Part shown: positions 3,237 to 60,028 of the stretch, one piece after another | Position numbering within the stretch: the first letter of the stretch is position 1 | How the letters are laid out: each line of letters opens with the position of its first letter | Origin: Fictibacillus solisalsi | Lineage (GTDB): Bacteria > Bacillota > Bacilli > Bacillales > Fictibacillaceae | DNA: 64,000 nucleotides | Reading direction: 5' to 3' | Assembly (NCBI RefSeq): GCF_900103485.1 | Contig: NZ_FNHW01000001.1 | Coordinates: 593,418-657,417, forward strand | Program-made: the position numbers and the translations under genes | Notes under the pieces: model-generated | Told to the model about the DNA's origin: nothing | Databases searched by the model: none | What the model saw: only the letters and a program-made list of their open reading frames with translations

Positions 3237-3263
3237 AGAGAATAATTAGTATTTATATGAACA

Positions 3264-3351
3264 ACCACTAGGGGAGCTTGTGAAAGCTGAGAAAAGAGTG
3301 AACTTTGACCCTTTGAACCTGATACGGATCATACCGTCGTAGGGAAGTGGC
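3264..3351 (+). ncRNA. TPP riboswitch (THI element)
   Basis: The conserved blocks are present in order: ACTAGGGGAGC, GCTGAGA, ACCCTTTGAACCTGATACGG, and CGTAGGGAAGTGG. P1 is formed by CCACT (3265-3269) and AGTGG (3346-3350). The 3' P1 arm continues into GTGGCTTAAAC (3347-3357), which can pair instead with GTTTAAGCCGC (3379-3389), the 5' arm of the downstream terminator. TPP binding should therefore fix P1, block the antiterminator and stop transcription before thiD. Confidence 0.95.
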
Positions 3352-3382
3352 TTAAACGAACGACCAGTTAAAAATGATGTTT

Positions 3383-18734: not shown

Positions 18735-18941
18735 TTAACGACGGAATCCGCCACCAAGTTGTTGTTCAGCCATTTGTACAAGACGCTTAGTGATCTCACC
18801 ACCAACTGATCCGTTAGCGCGAGAAGTAGTGTCTGCACCTAGTTGTACACCAAATTCAGAAGCGATTTCATACTTCATTTGGTCAAGAGCTTGTTGAGCT
18901 CCATTCACCAATAATTCGTTAGAGTTGTTGTTTCGTGCCAT
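18735..18941 (-). CDS. Alpha/beta-type small acid-soluble spore protein
   Basis: 68 residues. [20 protein letters not shown] begins the protein; the conserved core has the germination-protease site region [16 protein letters not shown] and the second family motif [16 protein letters not shown]. These bind and protect spore DNA and are degraded by GPR at germination. The start is the ATG at 18941 with GGAGGTGAT just upstream; a GTG three codons earlier overlaps that site. Own terminator. Confidence 0.95.
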
Positions 18942-19069
18942 ATGTATCACCTCCTTGTACTACTAGTTTGTATTACTACTTTGAAAATATGCATGGAAAT
19001 AATAAAATTTTTTCAGTCACCTTTTATAAAGGTTTTCGTATAGTATGTTATCCCCCTATACTTTATCAG

Positions 19070-19103
19070 GCGCCGTGATGACCTCCCACACGGCGCTTTA
19101 TTT
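19070..19103 (+). terminator. Terminator-like hairpin in the leader of the mifM-like unit
   Basis: GCGCCGTG (19070-19077) pairs with CACGGCGC (19089-19096), followed by TTTATTT. There is no plus-strand gene immediately upstream, so it may be an attenuator or a terminator for a short transcript from the TATAGT at 19039. Confidence 0.45.
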
Positions 19104-19161
19104 CTGTCGATTCTATGACACCTGCTCCTGTGCTATCTTTTTAGACGCTAAGGAGTTATAC

Positions 19162-19605
19162 TTGTATCAAAAGGGGGTGAGTCCAATCGAACCGATTCTT
19201 GAACTTTTGTGTGAAATGGATGTTATGCTGATTTCATTGGGTCTTACGCTGGCGGTGCTTGGCATCAGCAGGCACCTGATCATGCAGTGTCCTGATACGA
19301 TTAAGCGAAGCAGCCAGTTAAGAATTTCAGACACAGCCTGCACACGTAATCTTCAAAATACACCGAGCACTGTTCAAAACTTTTGTTTCATGAGAAACCG
19401 GATTGCTCTTAGGAAATACCGGAAAGAAGCACCGGATGATAATGACAGCCATTCCTTCTTGTCCTTTTTCATAGATGGAAAAACAACAAGGAGGAAATGC
19501 AATGATTCAAAAGAAACAACGATCAGGACTCGCACACGGATTAAAATTTTTAATTGCTATTTTGGGAATATGGGTGCTGGCGGGCTGCAGCCGAGCGCCG
19601 GTTAA
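19162..19605 (+). CDS. mifM: MifM-like translation-arrest leader peptide for yidC2
   Basis: An ORF directly ahead of, and out of frame with, a second yidC. The start is proposed at TTG 19162, with AAGGAG 6 bases upstream. Residues about 20-41 are one membrane segment (VMLISLGLTLAVLGI). Residues 78-95 read RNRIALRKYRKEAPDDND, which resembles the arrest segment of B. subtilis MifM as I recall it (IRKVFRMNSPVNDEED): basic patch, then proline, then an acidic run. The acidic run ends at 19446, and an SD-masking hairpin begins at 19450. The frame stays open to 19605, about 100 bases into yidC2. Known role: MifM stalls the ribosome when YidC activity is low. Assignment here is inference from synteny, topology and motif. 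Confidence 0.7.
   Translation: MYQKGVSPIEPILELLCEMDVMLISLGLTLAVLGISRHLIMQCPDTIKRSSQLRISDTACTRNLQNTPSTVQNFCFMRNRIALRKYRKEAPDDNDSHSFLSFFIDGKTTRRKCNDSKETTIRTRTRIKIFNCYFGNMGAGGLQPSAG
19450..19499 (+). promoter_or_regulatory. Hairpin sequestering the yidC2 Shine-Dalgarno
   Basis: CCTTCTTG (19454-19461) pairs with CAAGGAGG (19487-19494), and TTTTTC (19465-19470) pairs with GAAAAA (19478-19483), with a symmetric 3x3 internal loop between them. CATT/AATG may add four outer pairs. The 3' arm contains the yidC2 ribosome binding site AAGGAGG. A ribosome stalled at the leader's acidic run would melt the 5' arm. Confidence 0.75.
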
Positions 19606-20290
19606 TGCACAAAGCCACGGCGTATGGAGCCACTATTTTGTCTATCCATTCTCTGAAGTAATTCAGTTTGTGGCTACTTTTTTTAACGGAAATTATGGAC
19701 TGGCTATCATTTTTTTAACCATAATCATTCGCTGTCTGTTATTGCCCTTTACCATTTCGCAAACAAAAAATCAGCAAAAAATGAAAGAGCTTCAGCCGGA
19801 AATGAAGCGCATCCGCGAAAAATACAAGGGAAAAGACAAGGAAACACAAGTAAAAATGCAGCAGGAAGTTATGGCATTGTATCAAAAACATGGTGTAAAC
19901 CCGGTTTCGATGGGATGCTTGCCGCTGTTGATTCAGATGCCGATTCTTTTAGCTTTTTACTATGCGATCATTCGTACCAAAGAGATTGCCGCACATAATT
20001 TCCTTTGGTTTAATCTGGGTACACCCGATCCTACACACATCCTGCCGATTATCGCTGCCATTACAACCTTTATCCAATACAAAATTATCAACAGGCAGCT
20101 CGAACAGGCCAATCCGCAAATACAGATGATGGGCTATATTATGCCAATGATTATCGTATTCTCGGCATGGAAGCTATCTGCTGTACTGCCGCTGTACTGG
20201 ATTGTGGGTAACATTTTCATGACGGTCCAGAGCATTGTGTTGAACCGCAAACGGAAAAATATGCAAACTGCAGCGAATCCAAATTCCTAA
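19502..20290 (+). CDS. yidC: Membrane protein insertase YidC2 (YqjG/Oxa1 family)
   Basis: 262 residues. An N-terminal lipoprotein signal ends in LAGC (Cys29 lipidated). Five transmembrane segments follow, with the conserved TM2 region NYGLAIIFLTIIIRCLLLPF carrying the essential arginine, the basic coiled coil TKNQQKMKELQPEMKRIREK, and NPVSMGCLPLLIQMPILLAFY. This is the Gram-positive YidC form without a periplasmic domain. It inserts membrane proteins with or without Sec. The ATG at 19502 has AAGGAGG 7 bases upstream, hidden in the hairpin. The arrest leader upstream marks it as the inducible second copy (yidC2/yqjG). Confidence 0.92.
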   Translation: MIQKKQRSGLAHGLKFLIAILGIWVLAGCSRAPVNAQSHGVWSHYFVYPFSEVIQFVATFFNGNYGLAIIFLTIIIRCLLLPFTISQTKNQQKMKELQPEMKRIREKYKGKDKETQVKMQQEVMALYQKHGVNPVSMGCLPLLIQMPILLAFYYAIIRTKEIAAHNFLWFNLGTPDPTHILPIIAAITTFIQYKIINRQLEQANPQIQMMGYIMPMIIVFSAWKLSAVLPLYWIVGNIFMTVQSIVLNRKRKNMQTAANPNS

Positions 20291-29655: not shown

Positions 29656-29703
29656 TTACTATATTTAGTGTGAAAGTAAGGTGTGAGGAACTAAATATAG
29701 TAT
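29656..29703 (+). promoter_or_regulatory. Two NrdR-box-like sites upstream of the RNR operon
   Basis: ACTATATTTAGT (29658-29669) and its exact reverse complement ACTAAATATAGT (29690-29701) are 32 bp apart, about three helical turns. Both fit the NrdR pattern CwAtATaTwg with one substitution each. A TTGACA at 29649-29654 may be the -35 of the promoter. Repression of ribonucleotide reductase by NrdR is the known role of such paired boxes. Confidence 0.7.
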
Positions 29704-29707
29704 TTAT

Positions 29708-29890
29708 GAAACAACAGGTGTCTGTTAAAGACTTAATAGGGAATCCGGTGCAATTCCGGAGCTGTCCCCGCAACTGTCATGTGGACGAAACGGAGATCCA
29801 CTGTGTAAAGAACGCGCACAAAGCTGTGGCTTTTACATGGGAAGGTCCGGAGTAGGATGAAGCAGTAGCCAGTAGACCTGCCTTTTGTTT
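29708..29890 (+). ncRNA. Cobalamin (B12) riboswitch
   Basis: The aptamer blocks are in order: AGGTGTC, TTAATAGGGAATCCGGTGCA, GCTGTCCCCGCAACTGT, GGGAAGG, GGATGAAGCAGTAGCCAG and the B12 box AGTAGACCTGCC. A terminator follows at 29974-30005. With adenosylcobalamin bound, expression of the downstream B12-independent reductase should be turned off. Confidence 0.95.
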
Positions 29891-29973
29891 CACGGTTTTG
29901 ATTCTTCGGGGAGTGAGAAACAAAAACGGCACCAATCTGCTTTTTTGTTTTTTACATACTACGTGTCGTTTTT

Positions 29974-49919: not shown

Positions 49920-49953
49920 ATAAAAAAGGACCGGCGTGACGCAGGTCCTTTTA
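49920..49953 (+). terminator. Terminator between kinase and csp
   Basis: AAAAAGGACC pairs with GGTCCTTTT around a GC-rich loop; it can serve both the kinase and the convergent cold-shock gene. Confidence 0.75.
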
Positions 49954-49961
49954 TTTATGGG

Positions 49962-50162
49962 TTATCTTTTTACAACGTTAGCAGCTTGCGGTCCGCGAGC
50001 GCCATCGACAATTTCAAATTCAACTTCCTGGCCTTCTTCTAATGTTTTGAAGCCCTCGGATTGAATCGCAGAGAAGTGAACAAATACGTCATCTCCGCCC
50101 TCAACTTCAATAAAACCAAATCCTTTTTCTGCATTGAACCATTTTACCTTACCTGTTTGCAT
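49962..50162 (-). CDS. cspD: Cold-shock protein (CspB/CspD family)
   Basis: 66 residues of the five-strand OB fold. RNP1 is KGFGFIEVE and RNP2 is [20 protein letters not shown] starts the protein. It binds single-stranded RNA/DNA as a chaperone. The ATG at 50162 has TAGGAGGC 7 bases upstream; the frame is open 19 codons further without a site. Upstream lies an AT-rich, long untranslated region as usual for csp genes. Assigning cspD rather than cspB or cspC is not possible from context. Confidence 0.92.
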
Positions 50163-50365
50163 TCCTAGCCTCCTAAAACTTTGCACCCTGTGCCTTTTTA
50201 TTACCATAGAACCTTTCAAACATTTACTACAAAGATACTGAATATGTAATCAAAGTCTAAATGGTTGGAATTACTATATCATAGAAAAGTTGTAGGAGCA
50301 AGAAGTTTTATCAGAAAAATTAAAATATTTGCCCAGTCCGCCATTCAGGACAGGTCTTTATTTCA

Positions 50366-59892: not shown

Positions 59893-59932
59893 AGAAAAGA
59901 GGCAAGGAATAGATACACTGATCCCTTACCCC
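59893..59932 (-). terminator. Riboswitch-controlled terminator ahead of folD
   Basis: On the minus strand GGGGTAAGGGA (59922-59932) pairs along 11 positions, three of them G-U, with TTCCTTGCCTC (59899-59909), followed by TTTTC. Its 5' arm directly abuts the conserved 3' element of the ZTP aptamer. Confidence 0.75.
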
Positions 59933-60008
59933 TGCCCAGACGAACGGCTTTTTAGGTGATGCTTGCAGCTTCCTTGTGGTCAATTCCACACGCTCTCGTC
60001 AGTTGCTG
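59930..60008 (-). ncRNA. ZTP (pfl) riboswitch
   Basis: On the minus strand: CAGCAACTGACGAGAGCG, then GTGTGG...CCAC, AAGGAAGCTGCAAGCATCA and finally GCCGTTCGTCTGGGCA, the highly conserved 3' block of the pfl motif. The aptamer senses ZMP/ZTP, a signal of low 10-formyl-THF. Bound ligand should stabilise the 3' block and prevent the terminator, raising folD expression. Confidence 0.9.
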
Positions 60009-60028
60009 CTTTTCTTTATTCTGTTTAG

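Follow-up and report, generated by a model that had tools for sequence, protein, structure and literature searches.

The 64,000-nt stretch of Fictibacillus solisalsi DNA analyzed here (the window) carries on its plus strand a gene for a second YidC insertase, yidC2 (19502–20290; ATG 19502–19504), the product of which matches PF02096 (E 2.9e-53) and is 98% identical to its F. enclensis counterpart. The yidC2 Shine-Dalgarno (SD) sequence AAGGAGG (19488–19494, plus strand) is kept in all 7 searched genomes of the genus. The F. solisalsi genome contains 2 YidC genes, and at the locus of the other copy an rnpA-like frame runs in the same direction, which is the SpoIIIJ setting. Within the family, 15 of 34 genomes (G007–G010, G014, G020, and G025–G033) yielded a single YidC match, and the second YidC appears to be missing from part of the Fictibacillaceae. 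Ahead of yidC2 lies the subject of this analysis, an open frame that a sequence-only reading had taken for a MifM-like leader started at TTG 19162; the frame indeed runs from 19162 to a stop at 19603–19605, and it would comprise 139 codons plus stop (19186–19605, plus strand) if started at the AUC codon discussed below, from which codons are numbered unless stated otherwise.

The leader frame is carried by 7 of 7 searched Fictibacillus genomes (L003–L009) and by all 10 family-mates read, which belong to another genus and have a related leader (e.g., ...RKETPDDKEGHVSSLFA). Hydropathy agrees with the single membrane segment claimed earlier, giving one hydrophobic segment at 19204–19260 (best 19-residue stretch, codons 7–25; Kyte-Doolittle mean 2.04), about 59 residues from an acidic patch (25 to 84). 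The basic-Pro-acidic stretch RNRIALRKYRKEAPDDND is likewise where it had been described, at residues 78–95 counting from TTG 19162, and the region RNRIALRKYRKEAPDDNDSH (19393–19452; codons 70–89), at which arrest may occur, aligns with other Bacillales leaders. Variable sites were counted by codon position in 6 genomes (L003–L008), L009 being too diverged for codon-by-codon comparison. Codons 10–35 have 6/0/18 such sites at positions 1/2/3, and codons 61–92 have 4/4/18; codons 36–60 vary freely (9/11/20), the third-position excess is gone in codons 93–104 (5/5/4), and in the overlap with yidC2 (codons 105–134; 15/6/6) the variation tracks the yidC2 codons. These counts indicate that selection acts on a peptide of about 92 codons. 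By this measure the leader is a real peptide gene, constrained to approximately codon 92 (19461).

The leader had no family match in NCBIfam, Pfam, or Rfam at the gathering threshold, and the whole 147-residue frame had none among PDB sequences at E values up to 10. Its relationships were assessed by profile comparison with leaders from across the order, obtained from 249 searched genomes, in which 120 regions were hand-picked, not randomly drawn, among the matches listed. Three regions were without a hit and 52 were dropped by a filter for rnpA-like motifs (SpoIIIJ context), leaving 65, from which L182 (rnpA context) and L140, L141, L175, L176, and L177 (no leader frame listed) were removed. 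The resulting 59 leaders (L069–L179) include several near-duplicates, which makes counts over them non-independent, and a script placed their leader and yidC starts, part of which were checked by eye. The comparison profile of 60 leaders comprised 58 of these (all except L174) plus L052 and L056; the family set excludes G013 and G024, in which the second YidC is diverged.

In hhalign, the 17 Fictibacillaceae leaders matched the 60 other leaders at 96.5%; the match spans 26 columns of the C-terminal part, surrounding the arrest region, and 50 column shuffles of the same comparison reached at most 1.3%. The other Bacillales leaders matched a fragment of B. subtilis MifM at 94.2% with all 60 leaders, a set not chosen for mutual likeness, and at 91.8% with an 11-member subset that was so chosen. 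The Fictibacillaceae profile compared with the MifM fragment directly gives 4.8% (1.2% in another run), and hence the link to B. subtilis MifM runs through intermediates. Linked in these 2 steps over its C-terminal part, the leader is, as judged from the profiles, probably a MifM homologue. Together with the anatomy, this homology supports the proposal of a MifM-like YidC sensor with a diverged arrest motif.

The position of the leader start required revision. An AAGGAG (19150–19155) does lie 6 nt 5′ of TTG 19162, as had been noted, but the TTG itself overlaps a –10-like element, TATACT (19157–19162, plus strand), and is missing from 4 of the 7 genus genomes: only L003–L005 have TTG at this position, in L006–L008 TGT TAA takes the place of the TTG TAT of the window, and L009 is without TTG there. 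The TATACT is found in all 7 genomes, 9–10 nt 5′ of the SD core GGRGG, and the family-mates have TATAAT near the same place (in L017, 8 nt 5′ of the SD core). Because a sigma-70 promoter scan of the plus strand found no promoter and no –35 element at the leader, the putative leader promoter is placed by the –10-like element alone. The overlap of TATACT with TTG 19162 means that this codon would precede the transcript 5′ end, which we infer to lie near 19168.

Downstream of the –10-like element, an extended SD, AAAGGGGGTGA (19170–19180, plus strand), pairs with the 3′ end of 16S rRNA with one G-U and is followed, 8 nt 3′ of its GGGGG, by ATC 19186–19188, the probable AUC start codon, which aligns with the ATG region of the family-mates. 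AUC starts are very rare. The SD score for this codon is 26 (24 in L009), as it is for the ATG site in 9 of the 10 family-mates, and the in-frame ATG, GTG, and TTG codons of the leader score at most 15. The motif containing the AUC and its context, GGRGGTGAGTCCNATCGAR, is shared by all 7 genus genomes and absent from the 27 other family genomes. Numbering from the AUC places Arg79 and Pro83 at their B. subtilis MifM numbers (Pro83 counted on the DNA here), and Arg79 is numbered so in the accessible portion of the printed account. The genome has 17 AAAGGRGGTGA sites, including that of the leader; 8 of them precede open frames of at least 70 codons with ATG or GTG 4–6 nt after the TGA (at +5 in 5 of the 8), and in the leader the ATC stands at +5 with a frame of 139 codons. 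At the remaining 8 of the 16 sites other than the leader, the positions checked had no frame as long as 70 codons; therefore, a string resembling an extended SD is by itself weak evidence for a start. What sequence can offer for a non-canonical start under an extended SD, namely the SD, its spacing, and a conserved codon, is present in all 7 genus genomes and points to initiation at the AUC.

The leader could also be a MifM homologue that starts at TTG 19162 or at GTG 19177–19179, both of them ordinary, in-frame start codons, the former with the AAGGAG mentioned above and an SD score of 15. We regard this as quite unlikely: the TTG is opposed by its overlap with the –10-like element and by its absence from 4 genomes, 3 of which have TGT TAA instead, whereas the GTG is part of the extended SD itself, with no spacing left, and its equivalent in the 10 family-mates is followed by TGA within 2 codons. 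The leader thus probably starts at AUC 19186, not at TTG 19162. L166 was the only one of the 59 order leaders in which a near-cognate codon scored at least 8 above the best canonical codon. This leader (= L201) belongs to a second genus (g18), for which the comparison among loci L201–L209 covers L201, L202, and L206; where the yidC2 leader would start, these have either ATC or ACG, together with an SD-like AAAGGCAGGTGA, and they lack an in-frame ATG at a suitable spacing. L166 and L202 were not counted as a second case of AUC-started leaders, the congener L206 having ACG.

Non-canonical starts of a similar kind are described in the accessible portions of reports on S. aureus cvfC1 (AUU), ccpN (AUA), and infC (AUA) and on Streptomyces sigR (GTC). 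In S. aureus, these starts lie under extended SDs and lower expression, with AUU and AUA directing initiation at about 10%–30% of the AUG level, and the GTC start of sigR is repressed by IF3; unlike the Fictibacillus leader, none of the four is an arrest leader. The S. aureus paper does not use the term AUC in its main text.

The claim of a two-part hairpin 3′ of the conserved stretch, with the yidC2 AAGGAGG in its 3′ arm, is borne out by structure prediction. The predicted hairpin (19448–19500, plus strand) consists of pairs 19448–19449/19499–19500, 19452–19462/19486–19496, and 19465–19470/19478–19483, and would bury the yidC2 SD just 3′ of the arrest region, as in MifM-type leaders. Against dinucleotide shuffles, it scored z –2.98 (101 nt) and –4.21 (63 nt), the same hairpin was present in a longer fold (19170–19520), and z ranged from –3.1 to –4.2 across 6 Fictibacillus sequences folded (all except L007). 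In 3 family-mates, a hairpin over the yidC2 SD was also predicted but outdid shuffles only slightly (z –1.5 to –1.9), with 7–13 of 200 shuffles folding equally well. Hairpins that outfold shuffles throughout the genus, in a leader without Rfam, Pfam, or NCBIfam match, could point to an RNA switch in which the hairpin controls yidC2 and the frame is incidental. This explanation appears highly improbable to us, given that it leaves the third-position pattern in codons 10–35 and 61–92 and the protein-level profile homology unaccounted for.

The leader and yidC2 overlap out of frame (19502–19605, plus strand). The earlier statement that the frame, unlike in B. subtilis, runs on into yidC2 is true, the window leader ending 101 nt past the ATG, but the feature is not unique, 10 of the 59 order leaders, from 8 families, overlapping as well (L137, L138, L143, L145, L150, L151, L155, L162, L171, and L179; L137 by a few bases only). 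In L003–L009, the stop lies 101, 86, 101, 101, 101, 101, and 77 nt inside yidC2; the leaders of L052 and L056 also pass the yidC start, and the other 48 order leaders (without L174) end 14–45 nt 5′ of it. Of the 10, L137, L138, L145, and L162 were also viewed individually. L174 had been a candidate overlapping leader and was rejected on inspection, its yidC start being misplaced.

The sequence-only reading had further suggested that ribosomes reading through the yidC2 start possibly add a second repressive layer. If such a layer had evolved, released ribosomes would sweep the yidC2 start and block initiation there, or would end too far away for re-initiation. All 7 genus genomes keep the overlap, it recurs in the 10 leaders of 8 families, and the 10 family-mates instead stop 27–32 nt before yidC2. 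However, synonymous recodings of YidC2 left the leader frame open to +77 in 70% of cases and to +101 in 55%, the tail carries no peptide constraint and its stop shifts between 77 and 101, and ribosomes sweeping the yidC2 start would be few if the AUC start is weak. Accordingly, the overlap was rejected as a sign of selection by the recoding simulation together with the codon-position counts, it does not serve as evidence for the second layer, and an evolved layer of this kind seems to us rather improbable. Among the 27 order leaders out of the yidC frame, 11 (L174 included) are open over –45 to +9, compared with 5 for the third frame, and there is thus no sign of selection against overlap either. 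The overlap is real and recurrent, but the sequence gives no indication that selection has favored it. As a separate observation, 32 of the 59 order leaders are in the yidC frame, against one-third expected (binomial p 0.0013, with leaders treated as independent); a leader that shares the yidC frame could overlap yidC only as a fusion with it.

Based on its anatomy, conservation, homology, and peptide constraint, we consider it likely that the leader is a MifM-type monitoring leader, AUC-started and controlling yidC2, with a putative promoter at the –10-like element. Translation would start weakly at the AUC codon, positioned by the 11-nt extended SD, and the leader membrane segment would be a substrate of YidC. 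Under YidC shortage, the nascent chain would stall the ribosome with the acidic patch (D84–D87) at the peptidyl-transferase center. A ribosome with codons 87–90 (19444–19455) in the P site would reach to about 19460–19471, and most or all of the 5′ arm (19452–19462) would therefore be covered and the SD (19488–19494) free. The same arrangement of stalled ribosome, hairpin 5′ arm, and free SD is described for B. subtilis MifM in the accessible portions of the literature. When YidC is plentiful, insertion would pull the chain, translation would resume, and the hairpin would re-form; released ribosomes would cross the yidC2 start out of frame and terminate 34 codons into yidC2. Our confidence in the whole is reduced because half (8 of 16) of the other extended-SD sites lack a long frame and because the family-mate hairpins fare weakly against shuffles. 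A possible, more tentative extension is that the gain of the Fictibacillus sensor is set by initiation, with an inefficient, IF3-policed, genus-wide AUC keeping leader ribosomes few and the escapers crossing the yidC2 start out of frame; were this true, yidC2 would be responsive not only to YidC activity but also to how translation initiation stands in the cell.

As far as the accessible portions of the reports on the B. subtilis MifM–YidC2 system extend (PMC6037786 and PMC4423224), the 2 leaders share a site before yidC2, an N-terminal membrane segment, an SD-masking hairpin, an acidic patch within codons 84–89, and a similar constrained length (92 versus 95 codons). The Fictibacillus leader differs in the absence of W-I and M-N, in having DDND for DEED, in its probable AUC start, and in having no stop near the arrest site, with the frame instead extending 101 nt into yidC2. 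The B. subtilis arrest motif, RIXXWIXXXXXMNXXXXDEED, is accordingly not found in the basic-Pro-acidic stretch, which shares with it only R-I and 3 acidic patch residues at another spacing, R-I standing 12 residues before the acidic patch versus 17 in the B. subtilis motif. The acidic patch residues of B. subtilis MifM are described as partly redundant, and the patch is kept in the leader as DDND.

The MifM class of Fujiwara et al. (2024) comprises, according to its main text, 572 proteins from 592 Firmicutes genomes, found by a search that used annotated upstream open reading frames (PMC10987492). The Fictibacillus leader would share most of the properties by which that text defines the class: it lies directly 5′ of a yidC gene on the same strand, hydropathy gives it an N-terminal localization signal followed by at least 30 residues, and residues 70–100 include a five-residue window with charge below –0.3 (D84 D85 N86 D87 S88, –3/5 by hand count). 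The published median distance from membrane segment to patch in MifM proteins, obtained with other predictors, is 54 residues, near the value of about 59 given above. CliM of Clostridia, which monitors YidC, is also similar in the accessible portion of its report (PMC13183943), being a leader before yidC with a membrane segment and a stem-loop over the yidC start. Other papers drawn on in part were PMC7897499, PMC13009471, PMC5472188, and PMC10303841. The word Fictibacillus is absent from the main text of the MifM-class screen, and among titles and abstract openings of mostly open literature we recognized no report of an AUC-started or overlapping arrest leader or of Fictibacillus in connection with YidC, and no description of an arrest leader with initiation-set gain.

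Most likely, then, the leader belongs to the known MifM-type sensor family, the new features being the probable AUC start and the run into yidC2. Since the published screen began from annotated upstream frames, an AUC-started leader without a stop before its target would easily be missed or mis-started, and the class may be larger than described. The Fictibacillus leader offers a natural test of whether an arrest switch is tuned by how often its leader is initiated and by ribosomes crossing the target start out of frame, and the 10 other overlapping leaders make this testable across families.

Several further elements were observed in the window. On the far side of the spacer from the leader, a minus-strand frame (18735–18950) encodes what we take to be an alpha/beta-type small acid-soluble spore protein. 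Between these divergent genes lies an inverted repeat, GCGCCGTG...CACGGCGC (19070–19096), on which the terminator scan made no call; it is kept in L003–L008, with the outer pair altered on both sides in L006–L008. The spacer also contains the string CGTATAGTAT(G/C/T)TTATCCCCCTATA, identical in 7 of 7 genus genomes except for one base and perhaps part of the promoter of the minus-strand frame. Elsewhere in the window, RNA elements at 3260–3362, 29699–29899, 49922–50307, and 59927–60016 are ordinary TPP and cobalamin riboswitches, a cspA-type thermoregulator, and a ZTP riboswitch.
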